Of a stretch of DNA of 38,734 bases, positions 26,647 through 35,120 are shown piece after piece; position 1 is the stretch's first letter; every line of letters starts with the position of its first letter. Origin of the DNA: Candidatus Saccharimonadota bacterium (lineage in GTDB: Bacteria > Patescibacteriota > Saccharimonadia > Saccharimonadales > AWTP1-31); assembly GCA_003962975.1 (NCBI GenBank), contig RXKC01000003.1:1-38734 (forward strand). Reading direction: 5' to 3'. The notes beneath the pieces were generated by a model. It was not told where the DNA came from and did no database searches. It saw only the letters and a program-made list of their open reading frames with translations. The translations under genes and the position numbers were made by a program.

Positions 26647-26683
26647 TTGACACTATAATCTATCATCTATACAATAGATTATA
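26647..26683 (+). promoter_or_regulatory. Promoter and palindromic operator of the toxin-antitoxin pair
   Basis: A near-perfect promoter: TTGACA (26647-26652), 17 bases, TACAAT (26670-26675), 7 bases before the ATG. A perfect 10-bp inverted repeat TATAATCTAT (26654-26663) / ATAGATTATA (26674-26683) lies in the spacer and over the -10 and start point. This is the place where a ribbon-helix-helix antitoxin would bind to repress its own operon. Confidence 0.8.
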
Positions 26684-26961
26684 TGAAAACTGCTACTATA
26701 AATTTTAAGACAGATGAAAATACGAAGGTAAAAGCCCAGGCTGTTGCAAAACAGATTGGCATACCGCTTAGTAATCTGCTTAATGCTTACCTTTATGAGC
26801 TTGCTTCTACTGGTAGTGTTCATTTTACTGCTTCTGAGCCCATGACCGAAGAGATGGAAAAACGTATCGAGCAAGCCGAAAAAGAAATTGCCGCCGGAGA
26901 AGTCAGCGGTCCTTTTGAAACTCTAGAGGAAATGTTTGCGCATCTGGATAATCTTAAATGA
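26683..26961 (+). CDS. RelB/DinJ family antitoxin
   Basis: 92 residues. The N-terminus KTATINFKTDENTKVKAQAVAKQIGIPLSNLLNAYLYEL is a ribbon-helix-helix DNA-binding fold of the DinJ kind (beta strand, then two helices, the second beginning with LS). The acidic helical C-terminus (TEEMEKRIEQAEKEIAAGE) would wrap around the toxin. Its stop overlaps the toxin start by four bases (ATGA), giving the usual antitoxin-first order. The palindrome over its promoter fits self-repression, and the mRNA should be leaderless. Confidence 0.9.
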   Translation: MKTATINFKTDENTKVKAQAVAKQIGIPLSNLLNAYLYELASTGSVHFTASEPMTEEMEKRIEQAEKEIAAGEVSGPFETLEEMFAHLDNLK

Positions 26962-27218
26962 TTATCGAAACTACCAAAGCATTCGATAAGCAATATACAA
27001 AATTGAATATCAAAGTAAAAACTGCTTTTAAAGCAAGGGTTGAAATTTTTAACAGTGCCCCTTTCGACAGCAGATTACGCAACCATGCTTTAAAGGGCAA
27101 GTATTTAGGCTATAGAAGCATTGACGTTACTGGGGATATTAGAGCTTTGTATACCATCAAAGGCGATACTGTAATCATATTTGGCTTTATAGGCACACAT
27201 TCTCAACTATATAAATAA
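26958..27218 (+). CDS. RelE/YafQ-type toxin
   Basis: 86 residues with the RelE fold: ETTKAFDKQYTKLN at the start, a helix (VKTAFKARVEIFNSAPFDSRLRNHALKGKYLGYRSIDVTGDIRALYTIKGDTVIIFGFIGTHSQLYK is the conserved core in pieces: LRNHALKG, GYRSIDVTGDIRALY, VIIFGFIGTHSQLY). The H-x-L-x-G, D-I-R and G-T-H-S-x-L elements match YafQ, an mRNA endonuclease acting at the ribosome; the His of GTHS corresponds to its catalytic His. Coupled to the antitoxin by ATGA. Confidence 0.9.
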   Translation: MIIETTKAFDKQYTKLNIKVKTAFKARVEIFNSAPFDSRLRNHALKGKYLGYRSIDVTGDIRALYTIKGDTVIIFGFIGTHSQLYK

Positions 27219-28698: not shown

Positions 28699-29196
28699 CT
28701 ATTTTTTGTGTCTACTCTTCTTGGCATGCTTAAAGTTTTTGCCACCAGCCCATAGTTGAAAGAGGCACAACAAGCTAGCCACACCAATCAGAAGCTCGCG
28801 GTACTGTAGTAACTCGTCCCATAGACTTGTACCGTACACAGCAGCTTGTAGAGTTTCAGGTAACACCGGTAACGCTAAAAACATGGCAGTCACCCCCGTC
28901 AAGAGTGCCGGAAAAAGGTTAATCAACCACTTACCACCAGCTGCCGTTCGGCCGAGAAACAGAATGGTCAATAAAGCTGGAAATACTAACAGCCCCAACC
29001 GCACTCCAGACTGCATACCCGGGCCATAATTTTTGGTAAACAGCTGCAGCATATCGAGTGCCTGATCGCCCAGAAACGTACTGAGGACACTGCCGACACA
29101 CAATGACATAAACACCAAAGCCGCCCGAGCCTGCGCCAGCACAATCAACATGGTCGGGATACCGACCAACAGGCCAATAACAATAAGCGGATTCAT
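28699..29196 (-). CDS. Multi-helix membrane protein of unknown function
   Basis: 165 residues with about five hydrophobic segments (LIVIGLLVGIPTMLIVLAQ, ALVFMSLCVGSVLSTFL, LGLLVFPALLTILFL, LINLFPALLTGVTAMFLALPV, ELLIGVASLLCLFQLW) and a strongly basic tail NFKHAKKSRHKK. Not recognised. TAGACT (29203-29208 on the complement) ends 6 bases before the ATG; the GAGGGC between could also serve as a weak Shine-Dalgarno. Confidence 0.65.
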   Translation of the reverse strand: MNPLIVIGLLVGIPTMLIVLAQARAALVFMSLCVGSVLSTFLGDQALDMLQLFTKNYGPGMQSGVRLGLLVFPALLTILFLGRTAAGGKWLINLFPALLTGVTAMFLALPVLPETLQAAVYGTSLWDELLQYRELLIGVASLLCLFQLWAGGKNFKHAKKSRHKK

Positions 29197-29579: not shown

Positions 29580-30482
29580 TTAGGCGCCGACGCGGTCTTT
29601 GCGCTGTTTGGCCTTGGCGTTTTGTTCGATATATTCGATAATCTTTTCGGCAATATTGCGGCCAGTCACCTGCTCGATACCAAAACCGGGACTTGGATTA
29701 ACTTCTAGCACCAGCGGCCCTCGATCCGAACGCATCATGTCAACACCGCAAATCGACAGACCCATGGCTTTAGCGGCCTTGAGTGCCGTCTTACGCTCTT
29801 CGTCAGATAACTTAACCGTTGAACCTTCGCCGCCTTGGTGCAAGTTTGATCGGAAGTCATCATCAAGACTCTGTCGTTTCATGCTAGCAACCACGCGACC
29901 ACCAACCACAAAGGCACGAATGTCCTCACCAGCCGATTCTTCGACAAATTCTTGCACCAAAAAGTTTACGCCTTCCACATAGAAGGCCTGCATTACCGCC
30001 TGGGCAGCCTTGCGGGTTTCGGCAAGTACGACACCATTGCCGTGTGTCCCACGCGCAACCTTGATAATCAGCGGCGCACCACCGGCTTGTTCTACAACGT
30101 CATCAACATCACTGGTTTCACGGGCGAACACGGTTTTTGGAATACCCACATCTGCCCGAGCTAAAATTTGCATGCTACGCAACTTATCACGAGAGCGGTT
30201 AATTGCGATCGAGCTGGCTGTCGTGTAGACACCCTGCATTTCAAATTGGCGTACTATGGCAGTACCATACTTGGTGATACTCTGGCCAATGCGCGGAATA
30301 ATAACGTCAATGTCACCTAGGTCATCACCCTGGTACCGAACAACAGGGCGGCTTTTTTCGACGGTTACATAACATTCGGCGTGGTTAATAACCCGAACAT
30401 TGTGACCACGCGTAATAGCCTCTTCCATGAGACGCTTTGTTGAGAAATTACCCGGACCACGGCTGAGGATTGCAATATTCAT
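29580..30482 (-). CDS. rimK: Ribosomal protein S6-L-glutamate ligase RimK
   Basis: 300 residues, the same length as E. coli RimK and similar along its whole length: MNIAILSRGPGNFSTKRLMEEA, VIIPRIG, YGTAIVRQFEMQGVY, RSRDKLRSMQILAR, GGAPLIIKVARGTHGNGVVLAETR, DFRSNLHQGG and LEVNPSPGFGIE. It is an ATP-grasp ligase; metal-binding Glu and Asn are in EVNPSPG. RimK adds glutamates to the C-terminus of S6 and can make free poly-glutamate. An AAGGTG Shine-Dalgarno stands before the ATG, nine bases after the stop of the RimB-like gene. It is the last gene of the DUF1704 - RimB-like - rimK operon. Confidence 0.93.
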   Translation of the reverse strand: MNIAILSRGPGNFSTKRLMEEAITRGHNVRVINHAECYVTVEKSRPVVRYQGDDLGDIDVIIPRIGQSITKYGTAIVRQFEMQGVYTTASSIAINRSRDKLRSMQILARADVGIPKTVFARETSDVDDVVEQAGGAPLIIKVARGTHGNGVVLAETRKAAQAVMQAFYVEGVNFLVQEFVEESAGEDIRAFVVGGRVVASMKRQSLDDDFRSNLHQGGEGSTVKLSDEERKTALKAAKAMGLSICGVDMMRSDRGPLVLEVNPSPGFGIEQVTGRNIAEKIIEYIEQNAKAKQRKDRVGA

Positions 30483-30491
30483 AGCTGCACC

Positions 30492-30896
30492 TTACTTCTT
30501 ATATTGTGTTGCGTCAACCATTAGCTTATTGAGTCGCAGGAAGCGACGACCGATCAGAACGGGGTGTTTCATGCCAGCACGATGCGCTAGCGTAATACGA
30601 ATTGGGTACTCGACATTGCGAATGACGACAATGGTATGGACGGCAAAGCGACGCTCGGTTTGACCATTCGAACTGGTGACGGGTAGTGTTCGGTACCGCA
30701 CTGCCGTATGCTCTGGATGTGATTCATCCAAGGGCGTGAATTTTAAGACCGTCCTGCCATCGACTGTTTCCTCACGAATATTCAGACAATGGATAGCTCC
30801 ACTGTAGGCACCGGTATCGATCTTGGCTGTAACGTTTTTTATACCCAATTCTGGAAACGCTACTTTTTCGAAAATTCCAACGACTGAATCAGACAT
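30492..30896 (-). CDS. RimB-like retropepsin-fold protease (PF05618)
   Basis: 134 residues from MSDSVVGIFEKV. FPELGIKNVTAKIDTGAYSGAIHC holds the D-T-G-A active-site loop of pepsin-like proteases in the RimK-linked 'ATP-dependent zinc protease' family; VTSSNGQTERRFAV and HPVLIGRRFL complete the barrel. In Pseudomonas RimB acts with RimK on ribosome modification. The start at 30896 has a strong Shine-Dalgarno (GGAGG) 6 bases upstream and overlaps the end of the DUF1704 gene by 8 bases; the frame to 30923 was rejected. Its place between the peptidase and the ligase makes it part of one functional unit. Confidence 0.88.
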   Translation of the reverse strand: MSDSVVGIFEKVAFPELGIKNVTAKIDTGAYSGAIHCLNIREETVDGRTVLKFTPLDESHPEHTAVRYRTLPVTSSNGQTERRFAVHTIVVIRNVEYPIRITLAHRAGMKHPVLIGRRFLRLNKLMVDATQYKK

Positions 30897-32334
30897 ACGT
30901 TCCTCCGGTTGCGGTATGAGCAATAGCTAACTGCCGCTTGTTTGTTGGATCAAATTTACCAGTGAGCAAGAAGTAGAACATGGAATCGTTTCCTACATTA
31001 TCATTCCACAGTGTAACGGCACTAACCTTGCCCAGCAAGTAGCTGAGGTCCTTGTTATACGTCACAGGAAAGTCTAGTTCGGCCGTGCGATCTATTGGTG
31101 CGCCACGGAAAATACGCAGCACGTCATCATAAGCCTGAGACCGAACTTCTTCGATAGCTTGTTCTTGTAGCTGCCCGCCAGACTTCTTTGCTTCAAGCAA
31201 AGCGAGCAACCGCCAAGTTACCTCGAAGACACCACGAAAGTCTTTTTCCACATAGGCCAAGGCATTGTTAAGTGTGCCTCTAAAGTTAACCACCGTCCAC
31301 GGCGTGTCTGTCTTTGCTGCCACATTTTGTAGTACCGAGGCAGCACCTTCTTCGAAAGTAAGATAATCTGGCGCCTCACCAGTGTCGAAGGTTGTGTACA
31401 ACCCATTACCCATGACAGCGATATTGCTCATTCTACCCAGCACATATTTGAGACCGTGCCAGCCAAGCTCGTGTACGGCAACTCCAAAAAGTGCATCGTC
31501 TGTCTTGATCGGACTGCGCTTATCACCGACCCGCACGCCCTTATCTTCTTGGCTCCACGACAAGGCACCACCAGGCGCTTTGAACGCTTTTACCAAATTA
31601 TCCAGGCCGCGAGAATCAATTGCGTCCTGCATGACCGCCACAATATCGTCTGGCTCGAACGCGTCTTTACCCGCAGCGAGTAATGCTTGCCTACCTCGCG
31701 TGACTGCCTGTCTTTCTGGCTGGAAAGTCTTGTCTACCATTTCTGCCAGATACCCACGTGCGTCTTCGCTGAGTGTTGGAAGAGGTGCAACTGTTGTGTC
31801 GCCGTGAGCCCCAAAGAAACTTTCTGCAAGTTCATCATATATTTCGCGAGCCTGTCCCTTATACTCAACCCCACCAACCATCTTTTCAAGCTCATTCACC
31901 AGTCCAGCAAAAATTTCTGGTCGGTACACACCATATAGGCTTTCGTTAGTCTGCTGATACAGCTGAGCATTCTCGGCAAACTGATCATCTGTTTGTTGTG
32001 GTTGATTTAAATCTGTCGCTTGCAGCAAAAATTGCGCTTCGCGGCGACGATACCCGATGGTGCCTTCGTAGGCTTCGCGAGCATCACTACCAAGCCCTTG
32101 GGCGTTTTGGGCAGTAACGAAAAGTTGGCCTAACGACTGCTCTCGCTGTGAAATATCAGCCCGATCAAGCTTTGGGTACTCTATGTGCGGATTAGCTGTA
32201 CCCGCCAAGAAAGCCGCCTTAGCAGCAGCACGTTGAATAGGGTCACCTTCGAAAAACTCGTACGTTTGTAACCCAATATAGGGGTGAGCCAGCACCATAT
32301 TGCCCAGCTCGGCTTGGTCGACAACAGTAGTCAT
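30889..32334 (-). CDS. DUF1704/MATCAP-type zinc carboxypeptidase-like protein
   Basis: 481 residues. The catalytic region has H288-E-L-G-W-H293, the HExxxH form typical of DUF1704 (QEGLA-motif and tubulin tyrosine-carboxypeptidase family), then F327-E-E-G-A-A, the downstream Glu motif that supplies the third zinc ligand. The first half is helical with a long linker; the end is helical too. Eukaryotic relatives remove C-terminal Tyr or Glu from tubulin tails. Here the gene overlaps RimB-like by 8 bases and precedes rimK, so removal of RimK-made glutamates is the natural guess. It has its own strong promoter (TTGCAA-17-TATAAT) with a leader of about three bases. Confidence 0.83.
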   Translation of the reverse strand: MTTVVDQAELGNMVLAHPYIGLQTYEFFEGDPIQRAAAKAAFLAGTANPHIEYPKLDRADISQREQSLGQLFVTAQNAQGLGSDAREAYEGTIGYRRREAQFLLQATDLNQPQQTDDQFAENAQLYQQTNESLYGVYRPEIFAGLVNELEKMVGGVEYKGQAREIYDELAESFFGAHGDTTVAPLPTLSEDARGYLAEMVDKTFQPERQAVTRGRQALLAAGKDAFEPDDIVAVMQDAIDSRGLDNLVKAFKAPGGALSWSQEDKGVRVGDKRSPIKTDDALFGVAVHELGWHGLKYVLGRMSNIAVMGNGLYTTFDTGEAPDYLTFEEGAASVLQNVAAKTDTPWTVVNFRGTLNNALAYVEKDFRGVFEVTWRLLALLEAKKSGGQLQEQAIEEVRSQAYDDVLRIFRGAPIDRTAELDFPVTYNKDLSYLLGKVSAVTLWNDNVGNDSMFYFLLTGKFDPTNKRQLAIAHTATGGTYV

Positions 32335-32343
32335 AATCGCGCA

Positions 32344-32372
32344 ATTATACCAGTTTTTACTCTTTTTTGCAA
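32344..32372 (-). promoter_or_regulatory. Promoter of the DUF1704-rimB-rimK operon
   Basis: The complement reads TTGCAA (32372-32367), 17 bases, TATAAT (32349-32344), with TGG before the -10 (extended form). The -10 ends 9 bases before the ATG, so the 5' leader is only two or three bases. Confidence 0.75.
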
Positions 32373-32388
32373 TACTTTGGGTGCTGAG

Positions 32389-32499
32389 CTAGTTACTGGA
32401 ACTAACCCGTAGATAGGCCAGCACAATAAGGCTAACCACCACTGCCAAAATGCAGATTAGTATGGGGATTAAACCGGACTCATTGAGCTTTCGCGTCAT
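32389..32499 (-). CDS. 36-residue single-helix membrane peptide
   Basis: The frame reads MTRKLNESGLIP, a 19-residue apolar helix (ILICILAVVVSLIVLAYL) and RVSSSN-stop. A basic head, one helix and an Arg at its end is a coherent membrane peptide, which random sequence seldom gives. A TACTAT hexamer ends 8 bases before the ATG, inside the inverted repeat CATTACT/AGTAATG. It lies 17 bases before the promoter of the DUF1704 operon on the same strand, so read-through could join them. Not recognised; could be an anchor or regulator of that operon. Confidence 0.5.
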   Translation of the reverse strand: MTRKLNESGLIPILICILAVVVSLIVLAYLRVSSSN

Positions 32500-32588
32500 T
32501 ACTGTTAATAGTAATGCTTTCATTAGTATTAGTAAATATTGACTGGCTCCACATCTGTTATTTCTGGTATTATGGTAATGGTTATTTC

Positions 32589-35120
32589 ATGAACGATACC
32601 AAAACAAATCTCTATAATTTAGATATAGCACCGGCCCTGGCAGAGCTGAAGACCTCACATCAAGGTCTGTCTGGCCATGAAGCTTCGCGGCGCTACAAAC
32701 AGTTTGGCCCCAATGAATTGAGCGTCAAAAAGGCACCGCTTTGGAAACGTATTGTAGAACCCTTTGCTAGCTATTTCGCCATGGTGATTGTTGCAGCTGC
32801 TCTACTGAGCTTGTACGAACAAAAATGGTTCGAAGCCGGCATCATCAGTTTTATTCTGGTTACGAACGCGATTATTTTTTACGTACAGCAATTTTCTGTA
32901 GAAAAAGCTCTCCGGTCTTTGCGTGACCAAGATGTACAGACTACCGACGTGGTTCGTGAGGGCACAATCATAAAGGTTGCCAGTGCAAAGCTTGTGCCAG
33001 GTGACATTGTGCATATTGCTGAAGGTATGAAGATACCTGCCGATGGACGACTGATTGATGTTAGTCATCTAGAAATTGATGAGTCAATGTTAACCGGCGA
33101 AAGCTTGCCTATCCATAAACACGCTGCTGCCATGGCCGGCAAACTGCAGGTATATGAGCAAAAGAACATGTTATTTAAGGGCACCTATGTTCGGTCTGGC
33201 ATGGGCTTGCTGCTTGTCAGCGAAACTGGTGACCACACCCAACTTGGTGCTATCAACAAGCTAGCTTCAGAAGCAGACGACGGCAAAACACCAATTGAGC
33301 AAAAGATCGATGCCCTAACAAAGAAATTGTTGATTGGCATTGTGATCGTTTCTGCGGCCGTCTTTGCCCTAGCACTGGTGCGCGGCACTCACATAGATGA
33401 AGCTCTCCGTTTTACCCTAAGTTTAATTGTCTCTGCCGTTCCAGAAGGCTTGCCGGTAGCCATGACCTTAGTGCTATTGTTTAGCGCAAACCGCATGGCC
33501 AAGCAAAAGGCCTTGGTGAAAAAACTTGCTGCCATGGAAACCATGGGTGCAATCACCTTAATTGTGACCGACAAAACCGGTACCATAACGCGTAACCAAT
33601 TGGCCATTGCCGACCAGTACACTCCGCACACAAAACCAGAGTCATTTTTGACCGCAATTGCCGCCAGCCTGAACGGCAGCACTAAGCATGCCGCGGATCC
33701 ACTAGATGTGCTTTTGCAGGCCACCGCGGGAAAGAAATATGCCTTGAAGGCTGCCAAGAAAGTACACGACTTCCCCTTTGACCAACAACTTCGCCTGAGT
33801 GGAGCGGTCTGGCAAGTCGGCAAACATTACATGCTATACGTTAAAGGTGCTCCCGAAAAAATCATGAGCCATACCACCCACGCGCGGGGTCTGCAGGTTG
33901 CCCTGGCCGACTTTACGAGCAAGGGCTACCGCACTATTGGCTTTGCCAGCAAAAAACTCACATCTAAGCCTGAAGAACTGAATGCAAAAACGCTAGCTAA
34001 TATGCACTTCGAAGGCTTTGTTGGCCTCAGCGACCAACTGCGGCCCAACATTCATAAGGCAGTCGAAGAAGCCCATCGTGCCGGCATCGAAGTTGTCATG
34101 CTCACTGGCGACCATGCCGCAACAGCCAGTTATGTTGGTCAGCAAACTGGCATTATTAGTAATCCAAATCAAGCAGCCAACAGCAGCGCAATAGAAGGCA
34201 AGTCTGACGATGCCATTCGAGCCTCGCTGGAAACAACGCATGTATACGGACGTGTACTGCCCGAACATAAGTACGCACTACTAAAAGCGGTGCGCGGTCA
34301 TCACATTACAGCCATGACCGGTGACGGCGTAAATGACATACCAGCTTTGGTTGCTGCAGACGCCGGCCTTGCCATGGGCAGTGGCAGTGGTGCTGCCAAA
34401 GATGCCAGTGATATCGTGCTAGTAAACAGCAACTTCATGACCATTATTAACGCCGTGCGGTCTGGTCGCACCGTGCTGGCTAACATTCGAAAAATGGTTG
34501 TTTATCTTTTGGGTACCAGCGGAGGCGAAGTCCTAACTATGCTCTGTGCCCTGCTGCTTAACATTCCGCTGCCGATAACCGCCATCATGGTGCTGTGGGT
34601 TAACTTGGTAACAGACGGTGTGACGGTCATTCCGCTGGGGCTAGCTCAGGGCGAAAAACACCAGATGCAGCAACCGCCAGATAACCCTAAAGCACCTTTG
34701 CTAAATAAAATTCTACTGAGCCGAGCTATCGTTTTGGCGGTGACCATGGCTGTAACCGTGTTGGCTGTGTTTAAGGCTAACCTATCAAACGGCCTGGAAT
34801 ATGCCCAGACAATGGCTTTCCTCAGCCTCATCGTTATTCAGTGGGCCAATGCACTTAACATGAACTTCGAACATCACTCATGGGTACGTAATTTCATACA
34901 TCCGAATTACAAGCTCTTGGCAGCTATTAGCGGATCCGTCCTTATAAATGGTCTACTGTTCTGTACGCCTCTCCGAAACTATTTCGGTCTGAGTGCCCTC
35001 AGTCTGTCAGACGCCACAACTGCGAGCCTGGTTCCGACAGTAATTGCCTTTATCACTTGTGACCTGCACAAGCTATTTACGTGGCGCTTGCGTGCCCGAC
35101 AATTACACCACGCACGCTAA
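32589..35120 (+). CDS. P2-type cation-transporting ATPase
   Basis: 843 residues from MNDTKTNLYN. Order: N-terminal cation-ATPase domain (LSGHEASRRYKQFGPNEL), actuator with LTGES, M4 PEGLP (285-289), phosphorylation site D328-KTGTIT, nucleotide domain with KGAPE, hinge with TGDH and G-D579-GVND, then six C-terminal helices. M4 PEGLP and M6 WVNLVTDG match Ca-ATPase (SERCA-like) ligands, but M5 reads TSGGEV where SERCA has SNxGEV, so one Asn ligand is replaced by Ser. Ca2+ or Mn2+ export is likely, yet the ion is uncertain. An extended -10 TGGTATTAT lies 15 bases before the ATG. Its last 18 bases overlap the convergent lipid kinase. Confidence 0.92.
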   Translation: MNDTKTNLYNLDIAPALAELKTSHQGLSGHEASRRYKQFGPNELSVKKAPLWKRIVEPFASYFAMVIVAAALLSLYEQKWFEAGIISFILVTNAIIFYVQQFSVEKALRSLRDQDVQTTDVVREGTIIKVASAKLVPGDIVHIAEGMKIPADGRLIDVSHLEIDESMLTGESLPIHKHAAAMAGKLQVYEQKNMLFKGTYVRSGMGLLLVSETGDHTQLGAINKLASEADDGKTPIEQKIDALTKKLLIGIVIVSAAVFALALVRGTHIDEALRFTLSLIVSAVPEGLPVAMTLVLLFSANRMAKQKALVKKLAAMETMGAITLIVTDKTGTITRNQLAIADQYTPHTKPESFLTAIAASLNGSTKHAADPLDVLLQATAGKKYALKAAKKVHDFPFDQQLRLSGAVWQVGKHYMLYVKGAPEKIMSHTTHARGLQVALADFTSKGYRTIGFASKKLTSKPEELNAKTLANMHFEGFVGLSDQLRPNIHKAVEEAHRAGIEVVMLTGDHAATASYVGQQTGIISNPNQAANSSAIEGKSDDAIRASLETTHVYGRVLPEHKYALLKAVRGHHITAMTGDGVNDIPALVAADAGLAMGSGSGAAKDASDIVLVNSNFMTIINAVRSGRTVLANIRKMVVYLLGTSGGEVLTMLCALLLNIPLPITAIMVLWVNLVTDGVTVIPLGLAQGEKHQMQQPPDNPKAPLLNKILLSRAIVLAVTMAVTVLAVFKANLSNGLEYAQTMAFLSLIVIQWANALNMNFEHHSWVRNFIHPNYKLLAAISGSVLINGLLFCTPLRNYFGLSALSLSDATTASLVPTVIAFITCDLHKLFTWRLRARQLHHAR

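Follow-up and report, generated by a model that had tools for sequence, protein, structure and literature searches.

The 38,734-nt stretch analysed here (the window), part of a 252-kb contig of a Saccharibacteria/CPR genome (1.21 Mb, 97% complete), carries a rim operon in which the writer RimK and the eraser RimB are, on balance, probably joined by a second, unrelated peptidase that acts as an extra or alternative eraser of ligase-made tails. This metallopeptidase is a divergent relative of the MATCAP/DUF1704 family. As judged from sequence comparison, it very probably acts on the products of the ATP-grasp ligases of its locus, beside or instead of RimB. We draw the link between peptidase and ligase in action from RimB-less operons of the order peptidase-ATP-grasp-rimK and from gene fusions in other CPR classes. 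From characterised relatives we infer that the peptidase works as a carboxypeptidase (TMCP/MATCAP) and that RimK ligates glutamate, and the RimK product is the presumed substrate of the peptidase. RimK would put glutamates on a protein C-terminus or make free poly-alpha-glutamate, and the RimB-like retropepsin would cleave inside the poly-Glu tail. By homology, the MATCAP-like metallopeptidase would shorten, from the C-terminal end, the tails that the ATP-grasp ligases of this locus produce, and this trimming would set tail length or recycle the tails.

Genes and products of the window locus

Three ORFs are packed end to end on the minus strand (29580-32334). They encode the metallopeptidase (481 aa, 30889-32334), a RimB-like retropepsin (134 aa, 30492-30896) and the L-glutamate ligase RimK (300 aa, 29580-30482). 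The RimB-like ORF and the peptidase stop overlap by 8 nt and rimK lies 9 nt further on, which agrees with the three overlapping or nearly touching genes described in an earlier, sequence-only reading. For the RimB-like protein we took the ATG at 30896 as the start, ahead of which lies GGAGGA; the TTG at 30923 is just where the automatic ORF call begins. That reading had also placed the three genes under one strong promoter. A promoter-like site on the minus strand (TTGCAA-17-TATAAT, 32344-32372) matches 10 of 12 consensus positions, is the best of the region and suits the three genes, but it sits downstream of a small membrane ORF and, as a consensus match, is a candidate and no proof. A gap of 10 nt separates it from the peptidase ATG, so the message of the three genes would be almost leaderless.

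The small membrane ORF (minus strand, 32389-32523) encodes a single-helix protein of 44 aa, or 36 aa from the ATG at 32499, and its homologues lie upstream of rimB or the peptidase gene in many relatives. The 36-residue membrane peptide noticed earlier is thus a real and conserved neighbour; the suggestion that it ties the system to the membrane found no support. Members of this family share the pattern QxGF(I/V)(P/T)-hydrophobic-helix-RV, which recalls the start of type IV pilins. Downstream of rimK, a multi-helix membrane protein of 165 aa (minus strand, 28699-29196) has homologues in related loci. Between this gene and comEC, two small overlapping plus-strand ORFs (26683-27218) resemble, from their sequence, a RelB/RelE-type toxin-antitoxin pair; this insert is absent from the other rim loci. 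On the other side, a divergent gene that reads as a P-type cation ATPase (32514-35120) stands where most relatives have dnaJ, which indicates that the upstream side of the window's rim locus was rearranged.

The peptidase contains the motifs HELGWH (an HExxxH metal-binding/catalytic motif, residues 288-293, minus strand, 31456-31473) and FEEGAA (minus strand, 31339-31356), as the sequence-only reading had pointed out. E329 of the latter is the presumed third metal ligand, given its conservation and the EEG motif described for TMCP1 (PMC10499314). H288, E289, H293 and E329 were identical in all 69 aligned sequences, the window protein included, and the motif spacing was HExxxH in 62 and HExxH in seven of the homologues. 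We conclude that selection keeps the active site, and a catalytically dead peptidase was set aside.

The window peptidase alone matched PF08014 at E=1.7e-4 (21.1 bits), which is below the 27-bit cut-off, and we therefore call it a divergent MATCAP relative and not a Pfam member. All of the first nine homologues matched PF08014 (best 7e-17), and a profile built from these nine reached human MATCAP1 (7z5g) at E=1.1e-5, with an alignment across the HE...H, EEG, RG and KD positions. In a profile-profile comparison, 69 homologues aligned with the MATCAP domains of other CPR classes over 327 columns (probability 100, E=1.4e-38), and these domains in turn matched 7z5g (profile, 3e-32). The AF2 model of the window peptidase had a pLDDT of 95.8, and a PDB fold search with this model returned no MATCAP among its matches. 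With a fused CPR relative as control, the fold search found 7z5g at E=1e-11, followed by M32 carboxypeptidases. On this evidence the assignment to DUF1704 is correct, although the single sequence gives it little weight, and the aligned family settles the kinship. The viral contigs searched gave no relative.

The other two products were as described earlier, a DTGA protease and a full-length RimK. RimK passed the NCBI S6-ligase equivalog NF007764 (338.3 bits, cut-off 331), its closest solved structures are RimK, and it matched Candidatus Saccharibacteria records with up to 92% identity. The RimB-like protein passed PF05618 (58 bits, cut-off 27; E=9.5e-16). The RimB equivalog NF052261 scored best among the RimB/RloA models, with 68.8 bits against a cut-off of 200. 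By these scores the retropepsin is RimB-like and not a RimB equivalog. Its gene adjoins rimK, its DTG catalytic triplet is present (minus strand, 30810-30818), and related loci keep D[TS]G in 79 of their 80 RimB-like ORFs, the one without it being truncated.

Distribution of the peptidase and absence of RimB

The peptidase is carried by 110 of 393 genomes of the order. We sampled 68 homologue loci beyond the window, all from the same order, with flanks of ~7 kb each. In 50 of the 68, rimB or rimK lay within 7 kb of the peptidase gene (same strand in 47, peptidase upstream of rimB in 41), and the remaining 18 peptidase loci were away from rim genes. This neighbourhood spans at least 12 family-level groups, so the expectation that it would be kept in related genomes was borne out. 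The usual gene order, with flanking genes named from their sequences, is dnaJ - (small membrane ORF) - peptidase - (second ATP-grasp) - rimB - rimK - (DUF192) - 165-aa membrane protein - comEC - yebC. The dnaJ-comEC locus gathers diverse second ATP-grasp ligases, and some of these are joined to RimB, on one side or the other (examples of such loci are L134, L144, L158, L161 and L173). The peptidase tree requires at least 10 changes of the rim label along well supported branches, which indicates repeated gain or loss of the rim association. When rim loci were instead collected by way of RimK, 66 had sufficient upstream sequence and 13 of these held the peptidase; it is therefore an accessory and not a fixed part of the rim locus.

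We counted co-occurrence over the 393 genomes, ignoring relatedness and defining a strong RimK by E<1e-100. Strong RimK occurred in 308 genomes, and 302 had a RimB-type domain. RimK accompanied the peptidase in 103 of 110 peptidase genomes, compared with 205 of the 283 others (p=1e-6, kinship ignored), but among the 61 nearest genomes, presence of the peptidase did not as such go with that of RimB (10/48 vs 4/13).

Nine of the 393 genomes had RimK without RimB. The peptidase was present in eight of these nine, compared with 95 of the 299 genomes with both RimK and RimB (Fisher p=8e-4, kinship ignored); the remaining one, G062, reaches a completeness of only 76%. A separate search for PF05618 in six of the eight RimB-less peptidase genomes found no match, and the domain was present in both control genomes. 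The eight genomes belong to three family groups (f4, f31 and f35), and in all of them the peptidase gene heads a peptidase-ATP-grasp-rimK operon. Neighbouring genes of these operons share 1-4 nt or are separated by no more than 19 nt (seven loci measured: six of the eight genomes and the named record L332). This result suggests that the peptidase stands in for RimB in some species of these tiny symbiotic bacteria, as an interchangeable eraser of glutamate tails.

Fused proteins, substrate and alternative readings

Other CPR classes encode fused proteins, 667-1027 aa long, in which MATCAP forms the C-terminal part. Two of these (L219 and L234) have an N-terminal ATP-grasp domain like that of alpha-L-glutamate ligases (TIGR02291, 6e-85 and 2e-70) and MATCAP at the C-terminal end (PF08014, 2.3e-60 and 2e-33). 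Eight fusion proteins aligned over their full length. A retropepsin-like stretch separates ATP-grasp from MATCAP and was matched weakly (20-31 bits), at a constant position, in seven proteins. Among 14 fusions, D[TS]G was intact in three and HExxxH in all 14; the metallopeptidase thus seems to have taken over in these proteins. The gene preceding the L219 fusion encodes a PKD and 7TM protein that matched 7TM_transglut (PF14402, 3.4e-26) and RloB. The fusion itself is located at 4822-7218 of L219, and the like was seen in L220, L226, L227, L250, L257, L222, L221 and L234. The ligase-retropepsin-MATCAP fusion is perhaps more striking than the window locus. Single-gene MATCAPs of other CPR also adjoin ATP-grasp and retropepsin genes (L232, L248 and L252). 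Outside CPR, an Aminobacter plasmid has genes for an N-formylglutamate amidohydrolase, a QEGLA protein and a glutathione synthetase in a row; three other plasmids had no such neighbours.

The sequence-only reading had proposed a glutamate writer-eraser operon with ribosomal protein S6 as a possible target. Its families, its operon and its link between peptidase and ligase (through neighbourhood, RimB replacement and fusion) are supported, and S6 as the target is not. The S6 protein of the window genome ends in ...DDDEKDED, with Asp as the C-terminal residue. A C-terminal Glu was as common without as with the erasers, being found in 26 of 38 genomes with RimB and nine of 12 without, and in eight of 13 peptidase carriers and 27 of 37 non-carriers. 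S6 tails were therefore dropped as support for the target.

An unlikely alternative is that the peptidase works for the second ATP-grasp ligases instead of RimK and removes the residue that they add, as in tubulin tyrosination and detyrosination. A second ATP-grasp gene was found in 28 of 51 peptidase-bearing rim loci, compared with 14 of 53 without the peptidase, but the two samples differ in make-up. Every RimB-less operon also holds a second ligase, so the peptidase may serve that ligase instead, and in L015 the second ATP-grasp gene overlaps the peptidase gene. Moreover, the ligase in the fusions is of the TIGR02291/ATPgrasp_ST type and not RimK. However, many loci have peptidase-rimB-rimK without a second ligase between. 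The window is one of them, and with no second ligase next door its peptidase would have to act on a product made elsewhere. Turnover of a free poly-alpha-glutamate, stored or exported like cyanophycin, seems less probable still; here RimK would make the polymer, RimB would cut it and the metallopeptidase would degrade it to glutamate. RimK stimulated by RimB does make free poly-alpha-Glu in vitro (PMC11957791), the two membrane proteins are conserved neighbours, and the lack of support for S6 would fit this reading. Against it, the locus showed neither a gene for polymer export nor a known storage gene, and protein tails are the substrates of the closest characterised MATCAPs (PMC10499314).

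The neighbourhood could also result from hitch-hiking, with the dnaJ-comEC block merely conserved across the taxonomic order and the peptidase an unrelated passenger, as the peptidase loci located elsewhere and the other genes collected by the block might indicate. We consider this very improbable. The place and strand of the peptidase gene are constant, with overlapping genes, and the repeated changes of the rim label on the peptidase tree show that the association is not one frozen accident. The replacement of RimB in eight genomes, together with the proteins of other classes that join this kind of peptidase to ligase and retropepsin domains, largely refutes hitch-hiking. Taken together, we favour a rim operon in which the metallopeptidase is an additional or alternative eraser of tails made by the ligases of the locus.

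Comparison with known systems

Part of this system is already established. Reversible polyglutamylation with RimB as eraser and RimK as writer has been published (Little 2025, PMC11957791); RimB takes Glu off RpsF and stimulates RimK, and to this extent the earlier proposal is old. RimB-RimK hybrids have also been published (PMC11957791). In the literature searched, nothing linked DUF1704 with RimK or RimK with Saccharibacteria. Nor did we find there a MATCAP-type partner in rim loci, the replacement of RimB or the fusion, parts of which Iyer et al. 2009 may predict. That work reportedly describes neighbourhoods of ATP-grasp amidoligases and is the most likely earlier source for the link.

The Pseudomonas Rim system (RimB/RimK and RimA) likewise has RimK next to a RimB-like retropepsin, so that a single operon encodes both eraser and writer (PMC11957791, PMC10092738). 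In contrast, the CPR locus adds a MATCAP-like metallopeptidase, which in eight genomes is present without RimB. The CPR loci also have second ATP-grasp ligases and two membrane ORFs, and no RimA was seen. The Rlo system of Pseudomonas aeruginosa consists of the retropepsin RloA, the inactive transglutaminase/7TM protein RloB and the ATP-grasp protein RloC, and the published rlo operon has no metallopeptidase (PMC12239564). The CPR fusion resembles it in carrying an Rlo-type TIGR02291 ligase, and L219 has an RloB-like 7TM neighbour (compare L343), but ligase, retropepsin and MATCAP are combined in one protein and the retropepsin triplet is mostly lost. The window locus differs from Rlo, which has a secreted retropepsin and an RloB-type 7TM protein: the window RimB-like protein has no hydrophobic stretch of signal-peptide strength, and no RloB-like gene lies beside its gene. 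The QEGLA (TIGR02421) operons of Proteobacteria share the DUF1704 superfamily, and the Aminobacter row includes a glutathione-synthetase-like ATP-grasp. However, the window peptidase scored 16.1 bits with TIGR02421 (equivalog cut-off 338.65), and the Aminobacter QEGLA operon is without RimB or RimK.

The prokaryotic name of the peptidase superfamily, 'flavohemoglobin expression-modulating', is silent on mechanism, and we found no reported bacterial substrate. The link to RimK gives this superfamily a directly testable reaction. If the favoured reading is true, reversible bacterial polyglutamylation would have a second erasure chemistry, in Saccharibacteria/CPR with their little-known regulation, and the locus would offer a parallel, in bacteria, to the editing of tubulin tails by the ATP-grasp/MATCAP pair. 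The human TMCPs (MATCAPs) are metallocarboxypeptidases that shorten poly-Glu chains, and members of this family remove Tyr and Glu from tails (PMC10499314). The window protein shares with MATCAP1/MATCAP2 (TMCP1/TMCP2, KIAA0895L/KIAA0895) the HExxxH and EEG site and a profile match, and a likeness of fold was seen for the fused CPR relatives. Unlike the human proteins, it has no tubulin to act on, is very divergent and larger, and its gene adjoins that of a glutamate ligase. More tentatively, and with considerable doubt, the DUF1704/MATCAP peptidase and the ATP-grasp amino-acid ligase might form an old, portable bacterial writer-eraser module acting on protein tails, with interchangeable retropepsin and metallopeptidase erasers, of which the eukaryotic tubulin code, with its TTL/TTLL writers of the ATP-grasp type and MATCAP erasers, would be a descendant or an echo.
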